DNA of 27,904 bases from IMG/VR virus record IMGVR_UViG_3300007538_000133, positions 1 through 27,904 of that record, one strand, 5' to 3'. This DNA is from a virus. The notes under the pieces are model-generated. The model was not told where the DNA came from and made no database searches. It saw only the letters and a program-made list of their open reading frames with translations. This document shows, in pieces, positions 2,852 through 27,904 of the stretch; within the stretch, counting starts at the first letter, position 1, and every line of letters starts with the position of its first letter. The translations under genes were made by a program, and so were the position numbers.

Positions 2852-4461
2852 GCGGTAAGACCCCTATAAAGGCCGACAGCGCCAAGACCCGCACCGAGCG
2901 CCTGCTGCAGTGGGTTGTACGGAGCCATCGTAGTAGACGTTGTGTTCGGTGTAACCGGCACGCCGCGCATGATACCTGACAGTGCGTTGAGCTGCTGCAT
3001 CGGATAGTCGCGCTGCGCGATGAAGTCTTGGTATGCGGTGTCGAGCCCTTGCTGCTGCCGGGCCTCTTGCTGCTGACCAATCGTGTCGAGCAACTGAGCC
3101 GCTTGGATATCTCCGGCACGGGCCATCTCGCCCAGAGCCGCCAGCTGGTTGGCCTGCTCACTGCTGAACCCAAGGGCCGCGAGCGATTGGTCACGAGCAC
3201 GGGCGTTTTCGTCCGCTTGCGAGGACTCTACACGCGCCCGCTCGGCGGCGTTGGCGGCCTGAACCCGTGCGGCTTCGTCCACGGTGATGCCTTGTACTCG
3301 GGCCATCTCCGCCGCTTGGGCCTGCTGCACACGGGCGGCCTCGTCGATGCTGATACCCTGCACTCGGGCAAGTTCCGCTGCCTGCGACTGCTGGATACGG
3401 GCAAACTCGTCGGCGGACAGCCCCTGAATGCGAGACAGCTCCGCCGCTTGGGCTTGCTGCACGCGCGCCGCCTCGTCGATACCGACGCCTTGGGTCCGGG
3501 CCAGCTCTGCGGCTTGGGCCTGCTGCACGCGAGACGCCTCGTCTACGCCGATACCTTGCACACGGGCAAGCTCGGCCGCTTGGGCCTGCTGCACGCGGGA
3601 GGCTTCTTCGATGCTGATACCTTGGGTGCGCGCGATCTCGGCCGCTTGCGACTGGCGCTGCGCTTGCTGCGCCGCACGGTCCGCCTCGAACTGCGTGGCG
3701 GCTTTCCCATAGGCCGCCTGCGACCCTTCGGCCTGAATGCGCGCCATCCGGTCGAGCATCTCAGACTCTGCAATTCCCTCTTGCACCGCAGCGCGCGACC
3801 CGCCGAACGCCCCGGCTTGAACTGCGTCCGCAGACCGACCGGCTATGGAGCGGTCATAGTCCTTCTGGGCCTGCTTCTTCTGGACGTCCACCACATTCTG
3901 CATGTAGGGGTCCATGTACTGCTGAACCTCTTGCGAGGAGAACTGCCGCTCCGGCCCATAATTGAAGGTCTGCGCACTGCCCGCTTGAAAGTTGGCATAG
4001 GGGTCGTCTTGCGTTTGGGCAAACCCGGCGTAGGGGTTAGCTTGCCCTTGCTGGAAGCCAGCATAGGGGTCGAACTGCGCAGCAGCAAACCCGGCATAGG
4101 GATTAGCTTGCCCCTGCTGGAAGCCCATGTAGGGATTTACGCCGGTCATCTGGAATTGCGAGGGGCCAAACTGATACGGCTGCACGTTGGCCATCTGCTG
4201 CCCGGCAGACATATTTTGAGCCGTAGTGCCCATGGCTGCGCCTAGCCCCGGAATGCCTTGCCCCGCCACTTGGCGAGTTAGGTCATAGGCCGCTCCGGTA
4301 TCTGCAGACACATCCGCAAGCCGCTGCCCTCCGTAAGGCGTGTACGGAGCCAAGGACTGCCCTTCCGCCCGGTCCATAAGGCGGATGGCGTAGGGTTCGT
4401 AGTAATCGGGCAGGTTGGTCTGTGTGACCGTCTGCTCTGTAGGCGCGCTGCCCTTACCCAT
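2848..4461 (-). CDS. Helical-repeat internal virion protein, 537 aa
   Basis: Probable internal or ejection protein with two repeat arrays. Residues 109-163 hold five 11-residue units of the type NPYAGFQQGQA. Residues 272-403 hold six 22-residue units of the type QAAELARVQGIxxDEAARVQ, predicted as continuous Ala/Gln/Glu/Arg helix, likely a coiled rod. Between them, residues 165-270 are helical and include VQAGAFGGSRAAVQEG, a segment common in aquatic phage virion proteins. The C-terminus is helical and ends in a small Gly/Leu segment. The start overlaps the stop of the GNAT-like gene by 8 bases (ATGGGTAA), and its own stop overlaps the start of the next gene. Coding status is certain; function is inferred from position and composition. 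Confidence 0.88.
   Translation of the reverse strand: MGKGSAPTEQTVTQTNLPDYYEPYAIRLMDRAEGQSLAPYTPYGGQRLADVSADTGAAYDLTRQVAGQGIPGLGAAMGTTAQNMSAGQQMANVQPYQFGPSQFQMTGVNPYMGFQQGQANPYAGFAAAQFDPYAGFQQGQANPYAGFAQTQDDPYANFQAGSAQTFNYGPERQFSSQEVQQYMDPYMQNVVDVQKKQAQKDYDRSIAGRSADAVQAGAFGGSRAAVQEGIAESEMLDRMARIQAEGSQAAYGKAATQFEADRAAQQAQRQSQAAEIARTQGISIEEASRVQQAQAAELARVQGIGVDEASRVQQAQAAELARTQGVGIDEAARVQQAQAAELSRIQGLSADEFARIQQSQAAELARVQGISIDEAARVQQAQAAEMARVQGITVDEAARVQAANAAERARVESSQADENARARDQSLAALGFSSEQANQLAALGEMARAGDIQAAQLLDTIGQQQEARQQQGLDTAYQDFIAQRDYPMQQLNALSGIMRGVPVTPNTTSTTMAPYNPLQQALGAGLGAVGLYRGLTA
3253..3648 (-). repeat. Six tandem 66-bp (22-residue) helical repeats
   Basis: Six in-frame units encode residues 272-403 of the 537-residue protein. 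Consensus QAAELARVQGISIDEAARVQ plus QA. Differences are mostly conservative (I/V, S/A, T/V), so the period is maintained at protein level while the DNA has diverged. Confidence 0.9.
3973..4137 (-). repeat. Five tandem 33-bp (11-residue) NPYAGF repeats
   Basis: Five in-frame units cover residues 109-163 of the 537-residue protein: NPYMGFQQGQA, NPYAGFAAAQF, DPYAGFQQGQA, NPYAGFAQTQD and DPYANFQAGSA. The aromatic residues at fixed spacing suggest a repeating binding or packing surface. Confidence 0.9.
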
Positions 4462-4897
4462 TCTTTAGCTCCATCTTGTACGCGATATAGTCTGGTTTCC
4501 ACCCGTACCGCTCTAGCCAACGACCCCATGCCTTGCGGCCATAACCCTCAAGGTGCGTACACCCATTGCCCGCCGCAAACTGCTCGATAGTCGCCTGCGC
4601 CAGTGGTAGCCACTCTCTCATGCGGCGGCCGCCGATCCAGTCGAGTGCCATCGCACGGCACCCCGGGTATTCGATAATTCGCGTGGTGATAGCCGCGACA
4701 GGCTTAGTCCCGTCAACTACAAGCCACAAGACCAGCATCCCAGACTCTATGTTCTGTTTAACGTCGGCGGCCTCGAATTTGCTGCCTGCAGTCTGTATTG
4801 CCGGGGTGAGGAGGGCTTCGACGTCGGGCCACACGATATCCAAAACCTGCAGAGGTACGCACCCGAAGCTCAGTGCTTGGTGTTGCGTATCCCTCAT
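4454..4897 (-). CDS. GNAT-fold acetyltransferase-like virion protein, 147 aa
   Basis: The protein resembles the GNAT-like proteins often found among the internal virion genes of podophages (T7 gp13 sits in a comparable place). Visible hallmarks are a central strand pair (MLVLWLVVDGTKPVAAITTR), followed by MREWLPLAQATIEQFAAGNGC and the C-terminal block HLEGYGRKAWGRWLERYGWK. The last corresponds to the segment near the acetyl-CoA pyrophosphate loop and the final helix of the family. A canonical Q/RxxGxG/A loop is not clear, so acetyl-CoA binding may be lost and the role may be structural. The start overlaps the previous stop (ATGA) and the stop overlaps the next start by 8 bases, which places it firmly inside the internal-protein operon. 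Any substrate is unknown. Confidence 0.75.
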   Translation of the reverse strand: MRDTQHQALSFGCVPLQVLDIVWPDVEALLTPAIQTAGSKFEAADVKQNIESGMLVLWLVVDGTKPVAAITTRIIEYPGCRAMALDWIGGRRMREWLPLAQATIEQFAAGNGCTHLEGYGRKAWGRWLERYGWKPDYIAYKMELKNG

Positions 4898-10469: not shown

Positions 10470-11930
10470 TCACCCGATCCGCCAGTTGGTCCCGTCAGAA
10501 TAGACCGGCACCCCATTCGATCCGCCTCCAGCAACCACGCTTGCGAAGGTTGTGACGGTAGCGTCGGTAACGAAGGACCGCGCCCCTGCTCCGACGGTCG
10601 CGGCGGAGGGTAGCCCAGACACGGTGACTGTGAAGGGAAGCCGCAACACCGTGTGGACGCTGTTACCGAGGGTGATTTCGTTTGATGCGGTCGCCGACGA
10701 TACATTGGCGTTAGTCCCAATGACTATGTTGTTTCCGCCCGTGGTAAGCGAATTACCCGCCGCCCGGCCAATCCCAATGTTGTTTGATCCCGTAGTGGAG
10801 AACAGCGTTTGGGCCCCAAGCCCGACATTGTCGCTACCCCCACTGTTCTCCCCCGCCTGCCTACCGACAAAGACGCTGTACGAAGTGGTAGCGTTCCCCG
10901 CAGCCGAAGCCCCGACAGCTACTGTATTGCTGTGGGTTCCGTAGCGCAGCGCATTAGCCCCTACAGCTACGTTGCTGCTCTGCGAAGTTACCTGCGAGGC
11001 GGCGTTGAGGCCGAGGGCCGTGTTTTGGTTGGACGTGCCGTCATCGGAAGCAAGTGCTCCGGAACCAAGCCCGACAGACGACCCGTCAGAATAGCCGTCG
11101 CTAAGGGTGTTGACACTCGGCGTTACAAAACTGAGCGTACCAGAGCCGTTGGTCTGCAACAGTTGGCTTGGCGTGCCGTCCGTTGTTGGCAAGGTGAAGG
11201 CCGTTACGAACGACTGCAGGTTGCTGTCGTAGGCCAGCACGTTCGTCCCAATAGCTAGTCCGAGCGTTGCGCGAGCCGTAGCCGCGTCTGCGTCATCCAG
11301 CAGCGTGCGAGCAAACGCGGTCAGCGACGCCGTGGCATAGGCGTCGGAGCCGGTAGTGTAGACCATCTGGTCAGCAGAGGTTGTCAGGCCCGCGATAGAC
11401 TGGAGCCCCGCGTCGTAGGCTTGTACATTCGTACCGATAGATAGACCGAGATTTGTTCGGGCAGTAGCCGCGTTTGTGACGTCAGATAGATTATTTGTGG
11501 GCTGCAACACGTTCAGCAGTGGGGCCACATCTACGACGGCTGCACCTGTACCGGCTCCCGTAGCGTAAACAATAGCGGACTTCCCGGCAGCAATCGTCAC
11601 ATTCCCGCCTGACCCTTGGGTCATCACCACGCTGTTCGCAGTGGTGTTGCGGACAATGAAGACCTTCTGTTGGTCGTTCGGGTTGATTGTTACCGTGCAA
11701 GTGCCGCCGGGCGTCCCCGCAAACACGAGCGCTGCGTAATGGCCCTCGGACAGGGTGTAATCGACGGTGTTGAGGCTATAGCTTGTCGAGCTGAGCGTGA
11801 TTGTCCCTACGCCCTTGGTGGCGCGGTCAATGATCTGCAGGTTGACGTTGGTGATGTCGCCCCATTGCCCCGACTTTTCGCCGGTAGCCATCAACTCGAA
11901 GGCGTTATTCTGTGACGCTGTACTGGCCAT
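10470..11930 (-). CDS. Tail fibre with NxxIG (trimeric-adhesin head-like) repeats, 486 aa
   Basis: Residues 1-140 are a beta-rich virion-attachment part with WGDITNVNLQIIDRATKGVG, widespread in phage tail fibres. Residues 140-275 contain two LGLxIGTNVxAYDxxLQS units (162-178 and 223-240), also typical of fibre shafts. Residues about 300-405 carry seven or eight repeats of the type NNVGLG/NNIGIG, like the left-handed beta-roll repeats of YadA-type trimeric adhesins. They are closed by SNEITLGNS and a C-terminal cap ending VPVYSDGTNWRIG. AGAGGG lies four bases before the ATG. The repeat part and its cap closely resemble those of the 615-residue fibre at 14369-16216. It likely assembles as a homotrimer that contacts the host surface. 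Confidence 0.85.
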   Translation of the reverse strand: MASTASQNNAFELMATGEKSGQWGDITNVNLQIIDRATKGVGTITLSSTSYSLNTVDYTLSEGHYAALVFAGTPGGTCTVTINPNDQQKVFIVRNTTANSVVMTQGSGGNVTIAAGKSAIVYATGAGTGAAVVDVAPLLNVLQPTNNLSDVTNAATARTNLGLSIGTNVQAYDAGLQSIAGLTTSADQMVYTTGSDAYATASLTAFARTLLDDADAATARATLGLAIGTNVLAYDSNLQSFVTAFTLPTTDGTPSQLLQTNGSGTLSFVTPSVNTLSDGYSDGSSVGLGSGALASDDGTSNQNTALGLNAASQVTSQSSNVAVGANALRYGTHSNTVAVGASAAGNATTSYSVFVGRQAGENSGGSDNVGLGAQTLFSTTGSNNIGIGRAAGNSLTTGGNNIVIGTNANVSSATASNEITLGNSVHTVLRLPFTVTVSGLPSAATVGAGARSFVTDATVTTFASVVAGGGSNGVPVYSDGTNWRIG

Positions 11931-11939
11931 GTTGCCCTC

Positions 11940-12968
11940 TTAGGCTGCTATTTCGGTCCATACATCGGAAGATGCGGGGTCTACAGGAGTCCACGTGCCG
12001 TTAGGGCCCGGGTTTATTGGGGTCCACGTGCCGTTAGGGCCCGGGTTTATTGGGCCCCACACTACCACAGGCTTCACAAGTCCGGTAGCCTCTATGCCGT
12101 CCGGGAATACGCGCGCTGAGCCGGTAACTGCGAGGGAGCCAACGGCACCCGTGGCGAAAACGCCTGTAAGAGATACTGCCGTTGATCCGGTCGCTACCGC
12201 CGCTCCGACGGCGGCCGTGGCGGAGACGCCCGTGAGTGGAACTATCGCTGTCCCGGTGGCAGTAAGCGAGCCTGCAGCGCCAGTGGCGGAGACGCCCGTG
12301 AGCGAAACAACTGCTGCGCCGGTAGCCGTGACTGCCCCGACGGCACCCGTGGCGGAGACACCCGTGAGGGGCACTTCGGTCGGAATACTGGCCGTGGCGG
12401 TTCCGACGGCCCCCGTAGCAGAGACGCCCGTGAGGCTGGCTATGGCCGACCCCGTGACCCCGAGAGAGCCAACGGCCCCCGTGGCAGCAACGCCCGTCAG
12501 AGGTACTATTGCTGCTTTGGCTACTGTGGCGGTGCCAACGGCTCCCGTGGCGGAGACGCCCGTGAGTGAAACGACGGCTGCGCCGGTAGCCGTGGTTACG
12601 CCAACGGCTCCCGTGGCGGAGATGCCCGTAAGAGCTACGGTGGTTACAGTCCCGGCCGTGACCGTTCCAACGGTCCCCGTGGCGGAGACACCCGTGAGCA
12701 AAACGCCTGCTGCGCCAGTAGTCGTGACAAGGCCAGCGGCCCCCGTGGCGGAGACGCCCGTGAGGAGGGCCACGGCCGACCCAGTGACCGTGACCGTGTC
12801 AACGGCCCCCGTGGCGGAGACGCCCGTGAGCAAAACGCCTGCTGCACCAGTAGCCGTGACCGTACCAGCAGCCCCCGTGGCGGAGACGCCTGTGAGAGAA
12901 ACGGCGACAGAAACTCGCGTTAGATCATCGGCAAGCGGTAGCGCGGCTAGGGGGGCAAAACCCAGCAT
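11940..12968 (-). CDS. 22-residue 'LTGVSATG' repeat protein, 342 aa
   Basis: After a 24-residue start (MLGFAPLAALPLADDL) the protein consists of 12 consecutive 22-residue units (residues 25-288) of the form LTGVSATGAVGTVTATG followed by five variable residues. A degenerate thirteenth unit (PDGIEATG) follows. The C-terminus has a doubled INPGPNGTWTP block and ends VDPASSDVWTEIAA. The pattern predicts a regular beta-solenoid or beta-roll. Proteins with GVSATG-type repeats and a Trp-rich end are common in aquatic phages and are generally taken to be virion structural proteins. It lies in the fibre module and starts right after the previous stop (tandem TAA TAG). Exact function is unknown. Confidence 0.85.
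   Translation of the reverse strand: MLGFAPLAALPLADDLTRVSVAVSLTGVSATGAAGTVTATGAAGVLLTGVSATGAVDTVTVTGSAVALLTGVSATGAAGLVTTTGAAGVLLTGVSATGTVGTVTAGTVTTVALTGISATGAVGVTTATGAAVVSLTGVSATGAVGTATVAKAAIVPLTGVAATGAVGSLGVTGSAIASLTGVSATGAVGTATASIPTEVPLTGVSATGAVGAVTATGAAVVSLTGVSATGAAGSLTATGTAIVPLTGVSATAAVGAAVATGSTAVSLTGVFATGAVGSLAVTGSARVFPDGIEATGLVKPVVVWGPINPGPNGTWTPINPGPNGTWTPVDPASSDVWTEIAA
11989..12054 (-). repeat. Perfect 33-bp tandem duplication
   Basis: Two identical adjacent 33-base units (11989-12021 and 12022-12054) encode the doubled INPGPNGTWTP near the C-terminus of the 342-residue protein. Complete identity implies a very recent duplication. Confidence 0.95.
12105..12896 (-). repeat. Twelve tandem 66-bp (22-residue) repeats
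   Basis: Twelve in-frame units of 66 bases each, all exactly 22 codons, encode residues 25-288 of the 342-residue protein. The first half of each unit (LTGVSATGAVG) is nearly invariant, and the second half drifts. Confidence 0.93.
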
Positions 12969-13661: not shown

Positions 13662-14372
13662 TTATTCTGCAACGAAAGCCATGCCCGAGAGTGTCTGTGT
13701 CGTGCTGGTTGCTGTCACTGTGTAGACCCCAGGATTTGTGATTATCCCAGTCCTGACCCGAGAAGTATCCACTATTTGGGTTGTAGTGCTGTAAACCATG
13801 TCGCCAGTCGCATCCGGGAATGTGTTGGTGTTTGCGGAATAAGACATATGGACACCTACAGAAGCACTAGTCATCGAAGAGCTAAAATCAAAATTTAGCG
13901 CCATTGGATTGACGTTATCTTCTAGAAACTCTGTAGCCAAGATGCTCGGACTAGACCCAGACGGGATGAACCTATAGAGAAAAAATTGCTGTCGTGTTGT
14001 GTTTACGCTTGCAACATTGGTGACAACAACATTTGCCGTAGTCCCAGACGGTATGGCGCTATTTGTTATATACATACACGCATAGGCGTTAGATGTAACT
14101 GTGCCTTCGTCCACAATCCTTGTAGTCGCCACTCCGCCGACAGTTATTGTTGGGTAACTTGTGCCAATAGAACCATTGTTTCTAATAGCACAGGCAATAG
14201 CAATAAATCTTTTATCGCCAGCGGTACCAATGTCTCTGCCGGTAAAGGTTCTTGAACTAAATGCGGGTATGTCCGTCGAGTCACCAAAATAGTCGGCATA
14301 ACTTATTTCCGCAGTGGCGCCAGCACTCACCCCCGCCCGAGCCATCAACAGTTTCTGCGTAGACCCGATCAT
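13662..14372 (-). CDS. Probable virion or fibre-tip protein with atypical base composition, 236 aa
   Basis: The start at 14372 overlaps the stop of the 615-residue fibre as ATGA; a longer ORF start at 14405 lies inside that gene and has no better ribosome site. The protein is Ser/Thr/Ala/Val-rich and beta-predicted, without recognisable motifs beyond [19 protein letters not shown] near the N-terminus. It ends [13 protein letters not shown]. Hand counts of three 60-base lines gave 38-45% G+C, against about 58% in a line elsewhere, and codons ending in A or T are frequent. This suggests separate ancestry. Placement between a fibre and a tail-assembly chaperone suggests a receptor-binding or tip protein, which is inference. 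Confidence 0.8.
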
Positions 14373-16216
14373 GCCATCGCATCCCCAGCGAGGAAGCCAT
14401 ACCAAGTGGTGCCTCCGTTCACTGTCATAAACGTGTAAACGTCCACCTCGCCGCTTGCAGGGGCAGCAGGAGCCGCGCCACCAGCCCAGTCAACCGAGGC
14501 AGGCCATGTCAGCGTGTGGGTGCCGCCAGCCGTGATGATGAGGCTGAATGTGCCGACCTGACCAGACGAGGGAACACCCGTGAAGGTGAAGGTCGTGTTG
14601 CCAGAGGTCGTCAGCGTGTAGGTGTCTCGTGCGCCTACGTCTACCGACGGGGTGGTGCCGGAAAGAGCAGCCGAGGTATTGTCGATCCCCGCACCGGGGA
14701 CACGGAAGCGAGTGACACTGCTGTTCCCCAACGTGATCTCGTTGGAAACTGAGGTTGAAGATGGGTCAGCAGTGACCCCAATCACTATGTTGTTTGAGCC
14801 TGTGGTCAGACCCGCTTCGCCCGCATAGTCTCCGATAACGACGTTGAATTGGCCACTCGTAATGTCCTCACCCGCCTTTCGACCTATGCAGACGTTATAT
14901 GCACCTGTGGTGGTGAACTGCATGGCGTCTTCACCAATAGCCACGTTGTTTGCGCCTGTGACCGAAAGGAGGTTAAATCCTCCAATACCTATATTGGCGT
15001 TTCCGTTTGCCGCTGACGACATAGGACGCCAACCGATACCGATATTTCGCTGGCCCGATGTTATGTTGTCGCCAGCCTCCATCCCTAGAAACACATTGTA
15101 TGTGCCGGAAGTCAGCTTTGCGCCAGCGCTGTCGCCAACCGCGATGTTGTACCCAAAAGCAGCCGTAGCCACTCCAACACCCATAGCGTCCTGACCGATG
15201 GCGACGTTGCGTCCCCCCGTAGTGGCGGCATCCAACGCCCCGCTACCGATAGCCACGTTGTTGGAGCCGGTGGTGAGGTTGGCTCCCGCTAGGCTACCTA
15301 CAAGGACATTGGTAGTTCCCGTAGTCAGGTCATACCCGGCATCCTCACCAATGCCGATGTTGCTTGCTCCCGTGCTTGCGCCAGATACTCCACTTAATGC
15401 CCTACTACCAATCGCAATACGGTAATCTCCCTCGTTGAAGTATCCAGCCTGATACCCCACTGCGACGGTTCTATATCCCCCGGCTAGTCCCGCCGAAGCA
15501 CCGACAGCAACAGCTCCGCTTTGAAATCCATTCCGAGCAGCACTGTTACCGATAGCAACATTATCAGAGGTTGTAGTGGCGCTGAAGAGTGCCTCTTCCC
15601 CGATCACCACGTTGCCGGAGCCAGAGGTTAAAGCCTCGCCTGCGGTGACACCGACAACGAAGTTGTTTGCGCCTGTCGTTAGTGCAGGAAGCGTAGCAAT
15701 GGCGGCTAGGTTATTTGTCCCAATGACTGAGAACGCGCCCCCAGACGTGACCCAATCATAGTCCGTCCCGTTCCACGACAGCACCTCACCAGAGGCAGCG
15801 GTGCCGGTATTCAAGTGGGTGTCAACCAACGGGTTTACATTGCCCGCGTCGGTTACGTCAGCCCCAGATTCAATGCCATCCAGCTTGGTCTTGTCGCCGT
15901 CAACAAACGGCCCCTCAGCGGGGGGCTGTTGAATGTCCTCAGCGGCCGCCGTCACGTAGACAACCGCATCTCCGGAAAGACTGAGCAGAGAGCCGGTGGA
16001 GCTTTCATCCAGCACGCGCGTCAAGGTACCCGAGCTATAGGTGCCAAGGCCGATCTCCCAAGCATCCCCCTCCTCAATGACGTAGCGGACTACGTCCGCG
16101 TCGGTCACGCCAGCGGCGGAGAACGTCTGGAAGCCGTCAACCGCCGCCCCGAGGGTGATTGTCCCCGTGCCTGTGGTGGCCGTGGTCATCTTTGCGCGGT
16201 TGACGAGCGTTACCAT
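14369..16216 (-). CDS. Long tail fibre with about 18 NxxIG repeats, 615 aa
   Basis: Residues 1-95 are a virion-attachment domain common in aquatic phage fibres ([40 protein letters not shown]). Residues 100-175 include [17 protein letters not shown] and a linker frequent in fibre proteins. Residues about 184-480 hold some 18 units with cores such as NNVAIG, RNIGIG or YNVFLG spaced 15-20 residues apart, resembling the left-handed beta-roll of YadA-type trimeric adhesins. The array closes with NNIVIG and [10 protein letters not shown]. Residues 520-615 form a beta-rich C-terminal domain with [20 protein letters not shown] and [15 protein letters not shown] lies six bases before the ATG. It probably forms a trimeric fibre contacting the host. 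Confidence 0.86.
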
Positions 16217-19630: not shown

Positions 19631-19885
19631 CTAACACTTCCAAGCCCGCAGGCTCTTATTGATCCGGCTGTTTGGGTCATTGGCCGTCTTGGCCGACGTG
19701 AGCTTCTTCTTCATGCCCGACATCCGGGCACAAAAAGACTTCTTGCGGGCTCCGCCCTCTGGCTGTGGGGCCTTGAGCCCCGGCTTGCCCGGGTTCGCCT
19801 TGTTGTAAGACGCGCGACCCTTGGCGTTCAATCCGCCCTTGGCGCTCTTGCCTTCCTTACGGGTCCATGCCGGGGTCTTAGCCAT
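19631..19885 (-). CDS. DUF6321-type basic protein, 84 aa
   Basis: The sequence MAKTPAWTRKEGKSAKGGLN followed by AKGRASYNKANPG and GGARKKSFCARMSG follows the DUF6321 pattern, which is found in aquatic phages and some bacteria. The protein is Lys/Gly/Ala-rich and ends with a short helix (RINKSLRAWKC). No catalytic residues are evident. The ATG at 19885 lies four bases after the previous stop. Together with the other basic proteins nearby it may be a capsid-interior or DNA-binding component; that is inference from charge and location. Confidence 0.78.
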   Translation of the reverse strand: MAKTPAWTRKEGKSAKGGLNAKGRASYNKANPGKPGLKAPQPEGGARKKSFCARMSGMKKKLTSAKTANDPNSRINKSLRAWKC

Positions 19886-20685: not shown

Positions 20686-20723
20686 CCGAAAAACAAAAAA
20701 GAAGGGGCTCCCGAAGGAGCCCC
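20686..20723 (-). terminator. Strong intrinsic terminator after the major capsid gene
   Basis: On the minus strand an 8-bp stem GGGGCTCC/GGAGCCCC closes a TTCG tetraloop (20723-20704) and is followed by TTCTTTTTTGTTTTT. This is a textbook rho-independent terminator, 22 bases after the capsid stop codon. Partial read-through would set a high capsid to tail-protein ratio. The rest of the gap (20521-20685) holds the two stem-loops listed separately and an AT-rich patch (TACTATATG near 20675) without a convincing -35. Confidence 0.93.
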
Positions 20724-20745: not shown

Positions 20746-21654
20746 TTACGCAGCGCCGGGGGAGCCGTAGATACCCAGCGGGTCCGACACGCCAAAGCTG
20801 TAACGCTCGCGGGCCTTGTAGCGGACGTTGCCGGTATCGAAGTCGCCATCCATCGACGTGGCCAGCGGGGTCCGCACAAAGTGCTTCATGCCGTTGGGGA
20901 TGTCGGTGGTGAGGAACCATGCGTCGTTGTCAGTGAAATAGTGGTTGACACTGTACCCTTCCGGGATCGACCCATTCGACTTCAGGGCGTTGAGATCGTT
21001 GTCGGCGGTACCGACGCGGAGCTCAGTCTGCAGCAGACGGGTAGCAACGAACATGAGGGCTGGCGGAACGAGCAGCTTGCGTGGGCGAGCAGCGATCAGG
21101 AGACCGCGTTCGTCGACGTAGCCCGCGATGTCAATCACGGCCTGTTCAAGCGAGGTTTCGTTCAGGTCCGACGCAACCGAAGGACGGTTTGCGTTGACGG
21201 TACCGGCCACTGTCGGGTGCGCGGTCGAGAACAAGGTGACGCCATCGCCCGAGGTGAACGAGGTGAAACCGGTGTTCAGCAGCGAGGCTGCCTTGACCTG
21301 CTTGGTGTACGCCATGGCACGTGCGAGCGCCTTGGTGTAGCGAGCCGACAGCGAGTCATACAGGTTGTCTTCCATCGCTTCTTCAGTGATGGAGAAACCC
21401 ATAGCCACCGTCTCGTGCGTATAGCGAGCGGTGAACGACTCTTGCGCGTTGTCGTAGGCGATAGCCGCGCCTTCAGCCTTGGTCGGCGCAGCGCCGAAGC
21501 CTGAAAGTTTGACTTCTTCCTCGAACGAACGCTCGGAGTTTTCGGTCTCGTAGATTTCCGCATGCTCGTTGTCGTAGGAGTCATACTCCATACCAAACAA
21601 AGCATTCAGACCGGGGAGTAGCTCTTTAAGGAGCTGGGAGCGTGAAATAGCCAT
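20746..21654 (-). CDS. Major capsid protein, 302 aa
   Basis: The length, position after the scaffold and a strong terminator directly downstream identify the major coat protein. Motifs resemble HK97-fold major head proteins of the Mu gpT kind: FTARYTHETVAMGFSITEEA, the helix ARYTKALARAMAYTKQVKA (spine helix), then DGVTLFSTAHP and RPRKLLVPPALMFVATRLLQ. The C-terminus includes HYFTDNDAWFLTTDIPNG and YSFGVSDPLG. AAGGAGG lies seven bases upstream of ATG 21654, the strongest ribosome site in the window, consistent with high expression. No cleavable N-terminal scaffold domain is apparent, in line with the separate scaffold gene. Confidence 0.9.
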   Translation of the reverse strand: MAISRSQLLKELLPGLNALFGMEYDSYDNEHAEIYETENSERSFEEEVKLSGFGAAPTKAEGAAIAYDNAQESFTARYTHETVAMGFSITEEAMEDNLYDSLSARYTKALARAMAYTKQVKAASLLNTGFTSFTSGDGVTLFSTAHPTVAGTVNANRPSVASDLNETSLEQAVIDIAGYVDERGLLIAARPRKLLVPPALMFVATRLLQTELRVGTADNDLNALKSNGSIPEGYSVNHYFTDNDAWFLTTDIPNGMKHFVRTPLATSMDGDFDTGNVRYKARERYSFGVSDPLGIYGSPGAA

Positions 21655-22292: not shown

Positions 22293-22736
22293 TTACTTGC
22301 CAAAACTCGTCCGCGATGCGCGCTCTGGTTTCAAGACAGGCATACGCGGATCAGATTCGCGGAGATAGTTTCGATCCACAGAATCAATCTGATTCTTGGC
22401 CTTTTGAGCCATCTGGTCGTTACGATCTTCCACAATTTCGGTCGGGATGGAGCACAGAAGCAGGCCACCCACCTCGATGTTGCCCTTGAAACGTGAATCC
22501 ACGTCGGACATCACCATAAGCTCGGGATGGTCTTCAGCACGTACCGGAGTATATCCCTCACGGAAGCGCATGGAAACATTTCGGTTGTCTGCATCACCAA
22601 GGGTAGCGGTGCGAATCCAGCGGAAGCTCAGGCCTGCGCGAGGTTCGGGGGTGGGCAGAGCCGACGGTTGTTGCCACAAGCGTTTGCGTTCACCCGCTTC
22701 GCGGGTTTCTTGGGTGCGTGGGGTCCGGTCAGCCAT
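22293..22736 (-). CDS. Conserved hypothetical protein of the head module, 147 aa
   Basis: The protein is rich in charged residues and Pro near the N-terminus (TPRTQETREAGERKRLWQQP). A mixed core follows: FRWIRTATLGDADNRNVSMR, FREGYTPVRAEDHPELMVM and KGNIEVGGLLLCSIPTEIVE. It ends with a helix (EDRNDQMAQKAKNQIDSVDR) and a basic tail. The ATG overlaps the scaffold stop by eight bases, so it is probably translated together with the scaffold. No known catalytic motif is visible. A head-assembly or minor capsid role is inferred from the location. Confidence 0.8.
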   Translation of the reverse strand: MADRTPRTQETREAGERKRLWQQPSALPTPEPRAGLSFRWIRTATLGDADNRNVSMRFREGYTPVRAEDHPELMVMSDVDSRFKGNIEVGGLLLCSIPTEIVEDRNDQMAQKAKNQIDSVDRNYLRESDPRMPVLKPERASRTSFGK

Positions 22737-23649
22737 TGATCTGGTCCTTTAGTAGTTGCGCCGCATATCGTTCAGGTGTCAAACCCAGCCGCTTGGCGAG
22801 AGCAACTTGGGTTGAGGTAAGCCTCACTTTGCGTGGATTTGTCGAGCTGCGAGCAGCCGGTGCCACCACGTTGGCGGTTTTTCGTGGCCCTGCGTCTACC
22901 TCATGCGTAGAGCCCGCGAATTTCTCGGGGAAGCGCTTACGCATCCCTTCGTTGATCTTATCATAGTACGTTTGTGTGTTTGGATCAACACCACTACGTA
23001 CTAGGCGCTCGTGGAGCCCATAAGCGGCCCCAGTCATCTCTTCGTCAGTGCCAAACCACTCGTTATCCACCAACCACGTGCGCTGCTGCTCGTTGAGCTG
23101 AGGGACTTGTGGTTGCTGTGCCATACGCTGCTGGTAGGCCTGCTGGAGCTGCTCGGGCCCGTACTGGGGCTGGACTGCCTGTGGTCGCCAATTCTGCACC
23201 CGCTGCAGGTCGTTCTGCGACCGCATCAGCTTCTGCTGGGCTTCGACCAAGGCATCGGCGTCTCCGGCCTCATACGCCTGTTTGTATTCCCGCTTGGCCT
23301 GAGCGATCTCAGACTCGTACCGCGCTTTTGCGTTCTCGATGACGCTGGTCTGGCCCTGAGACAGCCGTTGGCTGAGCTGTTTGTTCTCTTCGGCAGCGCG
23401 CTGGGCGTACGAGATAGCCTCTTCGCGCAGGCGGATGGCCTCTTCCTTCTGGCGGGCAGCCTCGTGGTACTCGAATTTCAGCTGCTTGATGCGTTTTTGC
23501 ACCGATTCACTGTACTTCTCGACCTCGTCATCGTCGGGGACGTCGGCCTTGTGGTCTTCGGGCAACCGGGGCTTCTTCTCGGCGGGAATATCATCCACCA
23601 CCTCGAGCTCGAAGTCGTCGTCATCGTTGGTGTTTTCGTTGGTATTCAT
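22729..23649 (-). CDS. Capsid scaffolding protein, 306 aa
   Basis: The organisation is typical of podophage scaffolds. Residues 1-45 are very acidic (NTNENTNDDDDFELEVVDDI). Residues about 50-150 form a long charged coiled coil (KRIKQLKFEYHEAARQKEEA; KARYESEIAQAKREYKQAYE). A Gln/Pro-rich linker follows, then a conserved-looking helical part (TWLVDNEWFGTDEEMTGAAY). The last 33 residues are a basic helix (VRLTSTQVALAKRLGLTPER) like those that bind coat protein. GAGGG lies eight bases before the ATG, and only two bases separate it from the co-chaperonin stop. It would guide coat assembly and then leave the capsid. Confidence 0.85.
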   Translation of the reverse strand: MNTNENTNDDDDFELEVVDDIPAEKKPRLPEDHKADVPDDDEVEKYSESVQKRIKQLKFEYHEAARQKEEAIRLREEAISYAQRAAEENKQLSQRLSQGQTSVIENAKARYESEIAQAKREYKQAYEAGDADALVEAQQKLMRSQNDLQRVQNWRPQAVQPQYGPEQLQQAYQQRMAQQPQVPQLNEQQRTWLVDNEWFGTDEEMTGAAYGLHERLVRSGVDPNTQTYYDKINEGMRKRFPEKFAGSTHEVDAGPRKTANVVAPAARSSTNPRKVRLTSTQVALAKRLGLTPERYAAQLLKDQING

Positions 23650-23651
23650 GG

Positions 23652-24017
23652 TTAGGCCCTCGTATAGCCGCGTGGGTCGCTTACAACAGCTTCCACGGTG
23701 TCGTCGTTGATGATACGAAATTCTTTTCCGCCGATCTTAAATCGGGTTCCGGAGTAAGAGCGGAAGATCACGAAGTCGCCCTCTTTGCACCACGGCCCCG
23801 TCGGGAACCGATCAGCGTCCGCGTAGGCCTCTGCCCCGACCTTCAGCACGAAGCCGATGATAGACGCGGTGTCCTCTGCGGATTTCAGTTTGTCGGGCAT
23901 ATAGACCCCACCCTCGGTCTTCTCGTCGACCCCTAGCGTGGCGATCAGTACCCGATACCCCTTGGGTTCGGGCAGTTTGTGGGCGATTTTCTCGTCCACC
24001 TCAGTCGGTGTATACAT
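23652..24017 (-). CDS. GroES-like co-chaperonin, 121 aa
   Basis: Cpn10 hallmarks are present in order: PKGYRVLIATLG near the N-terminus (residues 18-29), the mobile-loop region DEKTEGGVYMPDKLKS (31-46) with GGVYM in place of the GroES GGIVL, IIGFVLKVG (53-61), a roof-type insertion, WCKEGDFVIFRSYSG (76-90), and TRFKIGGKEFRIINDDTVEAV (91-111). The length is slightly above that of bacterial GroES. It should cap host GroEL during folding of phage proteins, probably the capsid protein, as T4 gp31 does; no GroEL gene is visible. The ATG at 24017 is preferred because AGAGGG lies six bases upstream, whereas it abuts the ATG at 24023. The gene sits between portal and scaffold. Confidence 0.9.
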   Translation of the reverse strand: MYTPTEVDEKIAHKLPEPKGYRVLIATLGVDEKTEGGVYMPDKLKSAEDTASIIGFVLKVGAEAYADADRFPTGPWCKEGDFVIFRSYSGTRFKIGGKEFRIINDDTVEAVVSDPRGYTRA

Positions 24018-24043
24018 ACGCATCCCTCTTCGCGCAGCGATTT

Positions 24044-24104: not shown

Positions 24105-24273
24105 GCCGTTCGATCATCTCCTCCAGATCGCTCTCGACGGCGCTAAACGCCTCGATCCGACCTACGATTCGATAATACCCCTCGATGTTCTGGGCGGACC
24201 CAACAGCGAGGTATTCTTTGAGTTGCTCCCGGTACTCACGTACCTTCTTTCGGAGGAGTTGAAGTTCGTCCAA
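24091..24273 (-). CDS. Small coiled-coil protein, 60 aa
   Basis: A short, almost fully helical charged protein: MDELQLLRKKVREYREQLKE, a short break, then EGYYRIVGRIEAFSAVESDL and an end MIERHVDL. It overlaps the last 38 bases of the portal gene in another frame. A reading frame of this type in this place recurs after portal genes in aquatic podophages. It may form a small coiled coil linked to head assembly; no function is known to me. Its stop codon lies in the loop of a 9-bp stem. Confidence 0.75.
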   Translation of the reverse strand: MDELQLLRKKVREYREQLKEYLAVGSAQNIEGYYRIVGRIEAFSAVESDLEEMIERHVDL

Positions 24274-26767
24274 AGTTTGCTCCCATAGCCAAATCGGCGG
24301 CGATCTTTACGCCTAGCTTAGCGCCCTCAATCTTTTCGTTCCGAGAAGCCGCGTCAAGCTGCGAGGCCATTCTGGCGCTGATGTTTGCTGCATCGCGTTG
24401 CATATCCGCATCCAGCCGGTCCTTCTTGATCTCCATCTCGCCCGCCCGGGTCGCGGAGTCCATCTTGAAGCGCTCGACCTCGAGCAGGGCGTTGTGCCGG
24501 GCGATGTCTTCTTTGAGCTTGACCTCACGAGCCTTGAGCTCCAGCTCCGCTTTCTGGATTTGCGTGAGTGGGTCTTGGGCCTGCTGCTGGGCCTGCTGCT
24601 GGGCGGCCTCGGCTTGGTTCCCTTTGAGGAGCTTGTCGGCGGCCAGCGCGGCCATCCGCGATACCTCGAGCTCGACATCCTCAGGCAGCGTAGCCTCTGG
24701 GTCAGGCAGTTCGGTCCCCAAGCGCTTCTGGATTTCCATGCGGTACTGCATGGCGATGTGCTCGGTGACGTGCGAGGACAGCGCGTTCTGGATAGCGCTT
24801 GCGAACGGAGACTGCCCGACCATCTGCTGAATTTTCGGGTCTTGGGCCATAGCCATGTGGACCTGAATATGCGCTGCGTGGTCTTGGTACATAAACGCTT
24901 TGACCGGCGCTTGCTTCAACATGGCCATGTTCTCGGTCACAGGGTCCGCCGGTTTGATGTCCTCCGGCAGCTTGATGATGTCGTCGGCGTCTTGGATACC
25001 CAAGACCTCCAGCATCTGCCGGTGCAGTTTGCCCATGTCGTAGAGCTGCGGAGCCTGCTGAGCCAGCTGCAGGGCAGACTGATACTGCATCACGCGCTGG
25101 GCCATGGTGGCCGCATTCGGGTCCGAGACTGGAATGATCCCCACCCGGCCGTCAAAGTCTTCGGTCCGGTTGAAAATCTGGGTGTCTTCTTTGTCGTCCG
25201 CATCCGCAAGAGGGTATGCGTACGTGGGCGGCATGTAGTCGTGGATCACGCGAGCAATCAGGCGCAGCTCGTTCTTCATGGCGGCGTGCAGGCGAGCCTG
25301 TACGCCAGACATAACCTTCAGGGACCGCTCCAACAGGGCCAAGGTGGTCCCTACAGGAGCTTCCGAGTTCATGTTCCCCACCTGAACATCGGCTACGGAG
25401 CCGATACGGCGGCCCTCTTCAACCACATTTCCGAGGAGTTGGTACAGGACAGCCGACGGTTCTTTGTACGGCAGGAACGTGATTGAATCCCGAATAGCCC
25501 CGCCCGGGATGTCCACGTCGCGGAACTCGCCCGGCATGATGGGCGTATCGTCGCCGCGAATACGCATGCCCCGAGCTTTCAGGCCGCCCGGGAGGTTCGA
25601 CAGCGTGCCCGCGTCAATAAGCTGGCGCATGATGGAGGTCGCAGACTTTGCCAAGCCGCCAATCAGGTGGATCAACCCGGTTCCGTAGAAGCCAAGGCCG
25701 GGCAGGTACTTGTAGTGCACGAAGTGCATTTGCTTGCGCTTGCGCTCGTCGCTCTCGTCCCAATTCCGGCGGATGGATAGGATCGTGCGAGAGCTCTTGT
25801 CGATAGTTACGACGTGGGGCCGGGCAATGCCGTCGGGGTCATCAAACTCCTCCGGCATATTGAGGTCTACGTGCATCTCGAGGAGGGTATGCCGGTCGTC
25901 GTCGTCAATTCCGGCCTCTTCCCCGTCCAGATCGTCGTACTTCTCTTGGATGTCCGAGATGTCGGTCGTAGGCGCAGGCAGATCGACGTCGCGGTAGAAC
26001 CCGCTGAGCTGCAGCTTCAAAATCTCGTTCGGGGTCTTCTTCATGATGTGCGTGTAGCGCGGGCACGTGGGCAGGTCCGCAGCGCCGTACGCCACGACAA
26101 AGTCCTCCACCGGCACAAACATGGCGACCGGTCGCTCGCGAAGGGGGTCAAAATACACCTTCTTGAAGGCAGACCCGGCAATAGGGAGGCGGAACAGCAG
26201 CTGCTCCAGCTCGTCCCGGTACTCCGTCATTTCCTCGGTAAGCTGATAGTTCAGCTCGTTGCGCACGCGTTCAGCCTGCCGAAACTTGTCCGGGGTGACT
26301 TTTCCCATAATCTGCGTCTTCGCGGGCCCCGAAGCGGGAAAAATCTCTCCCATAGACTGTGCTTGGAACCGCACGACGGCCTCGGTCAAGAGGGGGTGAA
26401 AGACCCCCGACGCGCCCTGCCATGGCTGGCTACGCTCTTCGACCTTGAACCCCAGCAGGTCCAGCCCCTTCATGTAGGCGGTGGCCCACTCCTTGCGGGA
26501 CCGGCGGTCTGCTTCAAACTCAGCGACGAGCTCGCTGGCCATGCTGTCCAGTGTTGCCTCGTCGATCACCTCCGCGAGGTTGTCGCCATGCTCAAGACCT
26601 GCAACCTCATCGGTCATGTCGCCGGTAAAGTCGAGGATGAGCCCCCCATCGTCCGTCTCAATAGAGATAGCGTCCGGGTTGACGATCTCCAGCTGCATGC
26701 CAGAACTATCGCCCCCAAGGTCTTCCTGTGCGAGATCAAAGGGCTGCTGCATCTTCTCGATAGCCAT
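24236..26767 (-). CDS. Portal protein, 843 aa
   Basis: The portal forms the 12-fold ring at the unique capsid vertex through which DNA is packaged and to which the tail binds. Podophage-type features: an N-terminal acidic region; RRSRKEWATAYMKGLDLLGF and ERSQPWQGASGVFHPLLTEA (about residues 88-130); FRLPIAGSAFKKVYFDPLRE; IRRNWDESDERKRKQMHFVH; YKYLPGLGFYGTGLIHLIGG; and the long wing/stem helices that follow. Residues about 700-830 are a Gln-rich coiled coil (QAEAAQQQAQQQAQDPLTQI). The length is at the upper end for podophage portals because of this C-terminal extension. AAGGAA lies five bases before the ATG. Confidence 0.88.
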   Translation of the reverse strand: MAIEKMQQPFDLAQEDLGGDSSGMQLEIVNPDAISIETDDGGLILDFTGDMTDEVAGLEHGDNLAEVIDEATLDSMASELVAEFEADRRSRKEWATAYMKGLDLLGFKVEERSQPWQGASGVFHPLLTEAVVRFQAQSMGEIFPASGPAKTQIMGKVTPDKFRQAERVRNELNYQLTEEMTEYRDELEQLLFRLPIAGSAFKKVYFDPLRERPVAMFVPVEDFVVAYGAADLPTCPRYTHIMKKTPNEILKLQLSGFYRDVDLPAPTTDISDIQEKYDDLDGEEAGIDDDDRHTLLEMHVDLNMPEEFDDPDGIARPHVVTIDKSSRTILSIRRNWDESDERKRKQMHFVHYKYLPGLGFYGTGLIHLIGGLAKSATSIMRQLIDAGTLSNLPGGLKARGMRIRGDDTPIMPGEFRDVDIPGGAIRDSITFLPYKEPSAVLYQLLGNVVEEGRRIGSVADVQVGNMNSEAPVGTTLALLERSLKVMSGVQARLHAAMKNELRLIARVIHDYMPPTYAYPLADADDKEDTQIFNRTEDFDGRVGIIPVSDPNAATMAQRVMQYQSALQLAQQAPQLYDMGKLHRQMLEVLGIQDADDIIKLPEDIKPADPVTENMAMLKQAPVKAFMYQDHAAHIQVHMAMAQDPKIQQMVGQSPFASAIQNALSSHVTEHIAMQYRMEIQKRLGTELPDPEATLPEDVELEVSRMAALAADKLLKGNQAEAAQQQAQQQAQDPLTQIQKAELELKAREVKLKEDIARHNALLEVERFKMDSATRAGEMEIKKDRLDADMQRDAANISARMASQLDAASRNEKIEGAKLGVKIAADLAMGANFGRTSTPPKEGT

Positions 26768-26776
26768 AGTGGTTCC

Positions 26777-27514
26777 TTACCTGCTCATGCGGCTGGCCAG
26801 CAAAGCCCCCAGCCCTGAGTTCATCATGGGGGGCCGCCGCTGACCACCCTTAGCACTGCGTGGAGCCGGTTGCATAGGGGCCTGCGGGACCCTCTGCATC
26901 TGCTGCAACTGCGCCTGCATGGATGCTCGATCTGGCTGCTGCATAGGGTTCTGCGGGGCCAGCTGCTGACCGGGCTGTATCTGCATCTGCTGCTGCATCT
27001 GCGCCCGCTGCTGCATCTGCGCGTTCATCTCCTGCAGTTCGGCAGTACTCATGCCCGCATACGGGTTCGGTGGCTGGTTCGGCGTGGGGCCTACCTGCAT
27101 TCCTGCTTGGCGGGCTTGCATCTGCGGTATCTGCGGGGTGCCGTAGTATTGTGTCGCCTGCTGCATAGGGTCCTGCGGGGCCAGCTGCTGCTGCATCTGC
27201 ATCTGCTGCTGCATCTGCTGTTGATATGAGTTCATCTGCGCGTTCATCTGCTGCAGTTCGGCCGTACTCATGCCCGCATACGGGTTCGGTGGCTGGTTCG
27301 GCGTGGGGCCTACCTGCATCCCTGCTTGGCGGGCTTGCATCATGGCAAGCTGCTCTGGTGCCTGCGGCGTGTTCGCCAACAGAGCGCCCTTACCGCTCCG
27401 GCCGGGCTGTGCCTGCGGCGTCGGTTGTGGCTGCATCGGCATGCCCTTACCGCTCCGGCCGGGCTGTGCCTGCGGCGTCGGTTGTGATTGCGATCCGTAG
27501 GTTCCTGATCCCAT
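26777..27514 (-). CDS. Met/Gln/Pro-rich low-complexity protein, 245 aa
   Basis: Start at ATG 27514: GAGGAG lies seven bases upstream and overlaps the stop of the preceding gene, whereas an earlier TTG would lie within that site. The protein is dominated by Gln, Met, Pro and Ala. It contains a doubled PTPQAQPGRSGKG block near the N-terminus and two copies of QARQAGMQVGPTPNQPPNPY followed by AGMSTAELQ, separated by Met/Gln runs. The C-terminus is basic (APRSAKGGQRRPPMMNSG). No catalytic or membrane motif is seen. Its place directly before the portal suggests a head or packaging accessory, unproven. Confidence 0.82.
   Translation of the reverse strand: MGSGTYGSQSQPTPQAQPGRSGKGMPMQPQPTPQAQPGRSGKGALLANTPQAPEQLAMMQARQAGMQVGPTPNQPPNPYAGMSTAELQQMNAQMNSYQQQMQQQMQMQQQLAPQDPMQQATQYYGTPQIPQMQARQAGMQVGPTPNQPPNPYAGMSTAELQEMNAQMQQRAQMQQQMQIQPGQQLAPQNPMQQPDRASMQAQLQQMQRVPQAPMQPAPRSAKGGQRRPPMMNSGLGALLASRMSR
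27017..27340 (-). repeat. Two 105-bp near-identical direct repeats in the low-complexity gene
   Basis: Copies at 27017-27121 and 27236-27340 differ at three of 105 positions. They encode the doubled block MQARQAGMQVGPTPNQPPNP and the following AGMSTAELQ part. Near identity at silent sites points to recent duplication or gene conversion. Confidence 0.92.
27386..27486 (-). repeat. Two perfect 44-bp direct repeats
   Basis: Identical copies at 27386-27429 and 27443-27486, 13 bases apart, encode the two PTPQAQPGRSGKG blocks near the N-terminus of the 245-residue protein. Confidence 0.95.
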
Positions 27515-27525
27515 GCTGGGGCTCC

Positions 27526-27904
27526 TCAATAGAATGGTCGGCTTCCGCCTTTTGAGTTCATCCCGTACATTGGGACCGTGCTGCCTCCGCCTTTGCCGCC
27601 CTTACCACTCATGCCGAACTGCGGTTGCGGTTGAGGTTGCGACATCGGCGGGGTGGGAGCCGGTCTGTACTCCCCGTAAGCGTTACGCTGCATCTGCGCC
27701 GGAGGCTGCGCCTGCGGGGCGGCCATAATCCCACCGTACATATTGGCCGCGTAGGGGTTAGAGTACGTCGAATACGGGTTGGCTGACGGGGTGTATCCGC
27801 CATAAGACGGCTGGCTGTAGCCATAAGACGGCTGGCTGTAGCCATAAGACGGCTGGCTGTAGCCATAAGACGGCTGGCTGTAGCCATAAGACGGCTGGCT
27901 GTAG
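27526..27904 (-). CDS. Tyr/Gln/Ser/Pro-rich low-complexity protein, C-terminal 125 residues (start beyond the window)
   Basis: The frame is open from base 27904 to the TGA at 27526, so the N-terminus is outside. The visible part begins with five perfect YSQPSYG heptads, then GYTPSANPYSTYSNPYAANM, a Pro/Gln-rich stretch (PQAQPPAQMQ), repeated PQPQPQ, and a Gly/Lys-rich end FGMSGKGGKGGGSTVPMYGM followed by NSKGGSRPFY. The composition is that of an aromatic, prion-like disordered domain. The SGKG motif recurs in the next protein downstream (GRSGKG), suggesting related tails. Eleven bases separate the stop from the next ATG. No function is recognised. Confidence 0.8.
   Translation of the reverse strand, partial: YSQPSYGYSQPSYGYSQPSYGYSQPSYGYSQPSYGGYTPSANPYSTYSNPYAANMYGGIMAAPQAQPPAQMQRNAYGEYRPAPTPPMSQPQPQPQFGMSGKGGKGGGSTVPMYGMNSKGGSRPFY
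27800..27904 (-). repeat. Five perfect 21-bp tandem repeats, continuing past the window edge
   Basis: Five identical 21-base units (27800, 27821, 27842, 27863, 27884) encode the heptad YSQPSYG in register. The array is cut at the window end, so its full copy number is unknown. Complete identity suggests active slippage. Confidence 0.97.

Follow-up and report, generated by a model that had tools for sequence, protein, structure and literature searches.

The low-complexity domains of FUS, EWS, and TAF15 (the FET proteins) are rich in serine, tyrosine, glycine, and glutamine and carry regularly spaced tyrosine stickers, whose usual partner is arginine. Phages have low-complexity proteins of their own: a 2017 survey predicted prion-like domains for thousands of phage proteins, some of them tied to assembly and many with no assigned function (PMC5694896). 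Phages also compartmentalize assembly, as in SPP1, where the portal initiates procapsid formation at the membrane and the procapsids relocate to a viral DNA compartment (PMC13212656). By analogy, a local concentrator could be useful to a phage, which does not make the protein described here such a concentrator.

Here, we analyze a gene at the end of a 27,904-base stretch of viral DNA (an IMG/VR record, hereafter the window), which encodes part of a Tyr-rich low-complexity protein, LC1. LC1 shares with FET proteins a Ser/Tyr/Gly/Gln-rich region with regular Tyr, and differs in being a viral gene with few Arg and more Pro and in having no sequence relation to them that we found. The FUS/EWS/TAF15 resemblance proposed in an earlier note on this DNA therefore stands for composition and Tyr spacing and lapses beyond them, as no Pfam RNA-binding domain scores above cut-off in either half of LC1 or in the homologue from its near relative, and the translations contain no RGG. 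Like the proteins of the 2017 survey, some of which are linked to assembly, LC1 is a low-complexity phage protein, and unlike that set it is Tyr/Pro/Gly/Ser/Gln-rich with little Asn and has perfect heptads; the survey used prion-like composition scores, whereas LC1 is compared by plain composition (PMC5694896). Prion-like and low-complexity phage proteins are known in general; particular to this locus are the Tyr heptad, the position at the start of a head operon, the fast-changing homologues, and an anatomy spread over two contigs.

A Tyr-rich gene cut at its heptad array

The window closes with 106 bases of perfect tandem repeat (Tandem Repeats Finder: period 21, 5.0 copies, 100% matches), whose 21-bp unit array reads on the minus strand as (YSQPSYG)x5, each heptad contributing two regularly spaced Tyr. 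Together with a 90-residue tail the array makes up an open frame of 125 residues containing 15% Tyr, 16% Pro, 15% Gly, 14% Ser, and 10% Gln; LC1 has little Asn, few Arg, and a net charge of about zero. Both the five perfect heptads and the Tyr/Gln/Ser/Gly/Pro-rich remainder described in the earlier note are thus borne out. Five identical 21-mers are not a product of chance, and because all 21 positions, synonymous sites included, are the same in every copy, the array is either recent or homogenized. It runs off the contig end, so the gene is cut and "five" is only the number of heptads that the assembly retained; what had been taken for a phage protein is indeed a Tyr-rich phage protein, but only its C-terminal part. 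The tail carries two [GSA]KGG motifs, which recur in the LC2 of the near relative L088 and in L090, L047, and L061.

Such composition is rare in our sample. We scanned 246 sequence records, counting overlapping and duplicate loci, for open frames of 60 codons or more; across the 11,001 obtained, just nine distinct stretches combined a Gly/Ser/Tyr/Gln/Asn/Pro/Phe content of 70% or higher with a Tyr plus Phe content of 10% or higher. Five of them belong to the locus described here (LC1 of the window, its half on a second contig, the L088 homologue, and LC2 of the L088 lineage twice); the other four are a protein of L047 and L061 (two) and an ejection-like protein of the window and of its relative (two).

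Table 1. Features of the LC1 locus and the downstream head genes in the window.
Feature	Position	Strand	Basis
LC1 3' part, Tyr-rich low-complexity protein	27526..27903	-	open frame; 125 codons remain, 5' end missing beyond the contig end; agrees with the relative's LC1 in position and composition
Perfect 21-bp tandem repeat, five YSQPSYG heptads	27799..27904	-	Tandem Repeats Finder; identical repeat at the L085 end
LC1 C-terminal tail, GKGG/SKGGSRP motifs	27526..27614	-	sequence
LC2 ribosome-binding site (GGAG), immediately behind the LC1 stop	27522..27525	-	TGA-GGAG-CCCCAGC-ATG in sequence
LC2, Gln/Pro/Met-rich low-complexity, 245 aa from ATG	26777..27514	-	internal 219-bp duplication, RSGKG/SAKGG motifs
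Portal protein	24236..26767	-	phrog_1216 portal, E 4.6e-42; 83% identical to relative
GroES-like co-chaperonin	23652..24023	-	Pfam Cpn10, E 2e-13
Candidate scaffolding protein, charged, probably helical	22729..23649	-	phrog_28737 (unknown function), E 1e-39; 78% identical to relative
Major capsid protein	20746..21654	-	phrog_371, E 2.7e-23; 94% identical to relative
Terminator-like hairpin after capsid gene	20704..20723	-	GGGGCTCC-TTCG-GGAGCCCC and T run

The probable 5' half on a second contig

A search of 2.9 million IMG/VR contigs with a pattern of two and a half heptads, which may leave out the window's own record, matched only L085 (IMGVR_UViG_3300007538_007676, 4,597 bases). This contig carries a terminase small-subunit (TerS)-like gene, the large-subunit gene TerL, and then an LC1-type frame (3878-4597) that starts at an ATG preceded by GGAG, encodes 215 residues ahead of the array, and ends in identical 21-mers at the contig end. 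The window and L085 hence reach the same repeat from opposite sides with matching orientations. From the shared 21-mer, gene order, and composition we infer that the two frames are probably halves of one LC1 gene. The upstream part that the earlier note saw as needed for the full gene is probably this frame, directly behind TerL. The 215 residues ahead of the array, a minimum of five heptads, and the 90-residue tail would together give LC1 a length of at least about 340 residues. Tetranucleotide usage (0.707 for L085 against the window; 0.264-0.701 for pieces of the window against the rest) is compatible with a single virus, yet L085 ranks only 20th of 235 and is not singled out.

The window part of LC1 found no relative in IMG/VR besides L085, and the L085 part matched L085 alone. 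A two-heptad pattern had no match among the bacterial and archaeal genome_contigs (one genome per species, 84,980 species), PDB sequences gave no match, and a tblastn search of named phages with LC1 of L085 and L088 was likewise empty. Within the searches run, the exact heptad array is private to the window virus (the window and L085).

A near relative with uninterrupted gene order

The TerL of L085 led to L088 (G001; IMGVR_UViG_3300034374_002231; 64,667 bases, 64.7 kb) and to L090, with 85% TerL identity; L089 is identical to L088 over 8,353 bases, and L087 is 99.7% identical to it. In L088 the order TerL, LC1, LC2, portal is uninterrupted, and the TerL-portal interval holds a 308-codon frame (293 aa from the favored ATG) and a 262-aa frame. 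The two parts of LC1, one from L085 and one from the window, align collinearly to the single L088 LC1 gene (tblastn, SEG off). When 37 frames of the window and four of L085 were compared with 59,667 bases of L088 (tblastn, SEG off, E 1e-3), 36 of the 41 found a match and five, LC2 among them, did not.

LC1 and LC2 diverge far faster than the neighboring genes. LC1 is about 32-33% identical to its counterpart (SEG off) and LC2 has no detectable similarity, whereas the other window genes from portal to capsid are 78-94% identical, except a 60-aa frame at 71%. The L088 LC1 shares with the window LC1 its place, operon, Tyr/Gly/Gln/Pro repeats, GKGG tail, and lack of a domain; it differs in its unit (GYGMQQPSYG or GGYGMQQPSYG-type rather than YSQPSYG), which has diverged at the DNA level between copies, and in an N-terminal DANNDGKINFAD stretch. 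Likewise, the L088 LC2 has GFGGF runs where the window LC2 is Gln/Pro/Met-rich. Place and composition are thus conserved in both proteins and sequence is not. The earlier note had held that absence of the repeats from close relatives would speak against it, and this came out half one way: the exact heptad is absent, but the L088 homologue has another Tyr/Gly/Gln/Pro repeat in the same place.

Outside the repeats, none of 1000 local shuffles reached the score of LC1 of L090 against L088 or of L085 against L090, while direct homology of L085 to L088 is marginal (39/1000). These LC1 sequences (L085/window, L088, and L090) have in common an F-Y-PS block and an SQ...N.M block outside the repeat. 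The window part contains neither block and its tail does not beat shuffling against the L088 tail (279/1000 reach the score), so its link to the family rests on the 21-mer, gene order, and composition. A profile search with the LC1 core recovered five contigs in three lineages and no others.

For LC2, similarities of the window protein to those of L088, L121, and L047 were rejected because 87, 68, and 31 of 300 shuffles, respectively, reached the score, and it is therefore matched to the L088 LC2 by place and composition only. L121 against L047 (6/300) and the L088 LC2 against L047 (12/300) are borderline, and a search for LC2 relatives in IMG/VR confirmed none. The LC2 genes of the nearly identical contigs L087 (3373-4943) and L088 (6579-8290) are about one repeat unit (66 bp) apart; the discrepancy, either genuine length variation or a collapse in assembly, carries no weight here.

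Pfam gave no match above cut-off for either half of LC1, for the L088 homologue, or for LC2. An EF-hand in the DANNDGKINFAD stretch of L088 LC1 was rejected at 11 bits against a cut-off of 25.4. PHROG gave no match for LC1 and one short, weak match of unknown function for LC2 (2.1e-5). The AlphaFold model of L088 LC1 (mean pLDDT 45, four-row alignment) is almost all coil, and that of the window LC2 (mean pLDDT 57, single sequence) contains two longer helices in the copies of the duplication. These models, built on alignments of one to four sequences, are weak evidence that LC1 is intrinsically disordered, and its composition agrees. A folded known domain, the other finding that the earlier note would have taken against itself, did not appear: no Pfam family is above cut-off and the model has no confident fold.

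LC1 and the head operon

LC1, LC2, and portal are tightly packed, with ribosome-binding sites, and only 9 nt separate LC2 from the portal gene (Table 1); the earlier note's second low-complexity protein and portal are in place, the latter identified by its PHROG match. The scaffolding protein is a candidate by its position and sequence character. A head scaffold is an alpha-helical protein whose gene falls between those for portal and major capsid protein, a description that suits this candidate (22729-23649) better than LC1, which is encoded ahead of the portal and whose modeled homologue is nearly all coil.

Behind TerL, L085 and L088 share a promoter-like TTGCCA-N18-TATAGT. TATAGT starts 26 nt past the TerL stop, with TTGCCA ahead of it, in L085, L087, and L090, and L121, which has a Gln-rich protein at this place, carries TTGCTA-N17-TATAGT. 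Elsewhere in the window such sites occur at chance frequency (6 found, 6.6 expected). At the other end, the relative has a hairpin, GGGGCCGC-TTCG-GCGGCCCC, at the same place after the capsid gene, the stem changed and the pairing kept. No plus-strand terminator-like site was found in L088 5500-9000. The promoter-like site at LC1 is thus seen in three lineages and the terminator-like hairpin in two. Because the one precedes LC1 and the other follows the capsid gene, LC1 probably opens a head-assembly transcript that ends at the hairpin, a reading that rests on predicted signals.

A variable slot between TerL and portal

We collected 144 distinct TerL-portal junctions among the matches listed, removing duplicates by the sequence before the TerL end. 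They come from portal and TerL searches in which the best 80 of 600 stretches were covered and the portal listing missed L088 itself, and rarity is to be read as an estimate. Among these junctions the gap is below 120 nt in 57, 120-400 nt in 30, and larger in 57, and the slot holds unrelated genes on either strand. A plus-strand protein with more than 60% Gly/Ser/Tyr/Gln/Asn/Pro/Ala/Met occupies it in only 2/144, namely the L088 lineage (both genes) and L121 (a single Gln-rich protein). The slot is variable and the LC1-LC2 pair is accessory, and since most of the listed relatives are without the gene, LC1 is not a general requirement for head assembly in this phage group. Three slot entries (L117, L134, and L182) qualified only through low entropy and, being probable antisense frames, were left out.

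The nearest named phages among the matches listed are HTVC023P-type/MinM2-like podoviruses (MN698239, OQ594354, and OR003939; portal and TerL about 39-46% identical), in which, as in the rest of the named-phage collection, tblastn detected no LC1. HTVC023P has in the slot a Lys/Gly-rich protein, gp30, with one GGG motif, and DSL-LC04 has a PcfJ-like gene there. This gp30 is one of a set of Lys/Gly-rich basic proteins with GGG motifs between TerL and portal in phages of the group (L234, 4174-5001; L238, 431-1255; and L166, 5496-6101); those of L234 and L238, with repeated GGG motifs, were kept as a separate Lys-rich type.

Two further arrangements were seen. Directly upstream of TerL, L047 (137-787) and L061 (1107-1739) encode a Gly/Pro/Gln/Tyr-rich protein with two GKGG motifs, and the slot of L006 (1686-2279) and L027 (3620-4213) holds a 197-aa protein that we take to resemble a 2-oxoglutarate oxygenase.

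Possible roles of LC1

Our leading reading, to which we give roughly even chances, is that LC1 is a disordered accessory protein of head assembly or of the virion and works through weak multivalent contacts of its aromatic residues. On a transcript running from the promoter through LC1, LC2, portal, the GroES-like protein, the candidate scaffold, and capsid to the terminator, the evenly spaced Tyr of LC1 would make many weak contacts with itself, LC2, or another virion part, and LC1 could serve as a soft tether or concentrator at the site where portal and procapsid form. Its exact sequence would then matter little, allowing rapid divergence and repeats that expand and change fast. This and the readings weighed below overlap in part, and our confidence in them need not sum to one.

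The variability of the slot, filled with unrelated genes on either strand among the 144 junctions, raises the possibility, to which we assign a distinctly smaller but real weight, that LC1 and LC2 are moron-like passengers, host-directed or near idle, and the repeat a recent, functionless product of slippage. In the 57 junctions shorter than 120 nt the flanking genes are otherwise adjacent, as around a moron; the pair has a predicted promoter-like site of its own, the DNA identity of the units suggests recent expansion, both proteins are nearly unalignable next to neighbors mostly 78-94% identical, and rarity among the listed junctions would suit a dispensable passenger no less than an assembly factor. 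The packing of LC1, LC2, and portal argues the other way: because the gap is 9 nt there is no room between LC2 and portal for the moron's own terminator, nor was a terminator-like site seen in the L088 interval, and two lineages retain the pair with order and composition unchanged, while a third retains LC1. About as tentative is a role for LC1 as a flexible structural component of the completed virion, whether inside the head, at the neck, or on the surface, with no part in assembly and no condensate. Late-operon position, predicted disorder, and the GKGG motifs of both proteins are consistent with it, as are the Lys/Gly-rich basic proteins that occupy the slot in L234, L238, and HTVC023P, which could be internal head proteins; LC1, in contrast, is near neutral, unlike a DNA-binding internal protein.

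Somewhat less probable again is the condensate proposed in the earlier note: LC1 would form true condensates by prion-like phase separation, and these would concentrate portal, LC2, and capsid parts or label an assembly site in the infected cell. The composition and regular Tyr spacing of LC1 speak for this, as do the aromatic-rich repeats in LC1 and LC2 of the relative (the latter with Phe), which are of like type but unlike sequence, and the compartmentalized assembly of phages such as SPP1 (PMC13212656). The scarcity of Arg, a net charge near zero, the lack of a Pfam RNA- or DNA-binding domain in LC1, and its absence from most of the listed relatives all weigh against it. The boldest version, in which a FUS-like sticker-and-spacer protein is the first product of the head operon and surrounds the portal with a condensate, its composition and Tyr spacing being conserved instead of its sequence and its heptad number serving to tune it, we consider improbable. 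Were it true, FUS-like phage genes would escape notice systematically, since short-read assemblies fail at their repeats in the terminase-portal interval. If LC1 does condense, it would offer a small, testable case from a bacterial virus of a mechanism studied mainly in eukaryotes, with its homologues as a natural series varying the repeat. That the array is no more than an assembly artifact, a k-mer loop, is very unlikely: the window and L085 do both end inside the repeat and L090 and L087 in or at the low-complexity pair, but just such breaks are expected from a genuine tandem array that exceeds the k-mer length, there are real flanks on either side of the array, and LC1 of the relative contains a Tyr-rich repeat of another kind that assembled completely.

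Broken contigs and other repeat proteins

Of the six contigs in this lineage with LC1 or LC2, four break off at these repeats or within them, so Tyr-rich repeat proteins are probably under-counted in metagenomic virus collections, where the two halves of such a gene look like unrelated orphans. Besides the window and L085, the contigs ending at or inside the pair are L090 (at 7244) and L087 (at 4943).

Several other minus-strand genes of the window deserve mention. An ejection-like protein (2848-4461; phrog_4287, E 1.4e-7) has aromatic NPYAGFQQGQA-type repeats, also present in the relative, which are possibly another set of sticker residues in the same virion. A protein at 11940-12968 has LTGVSATGAVG repeats of about 22 residues and a homologue 44% identical in the relative, and 19631-19885 encodes a small basic protein (Pfam DUF6321, E 2.8e-19). 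Two long tail-region proteins (14369-16216 and 10470-11930), both matched in the relative, contain NNVAIG-type repeats that resemble those of YadA-like head domains.
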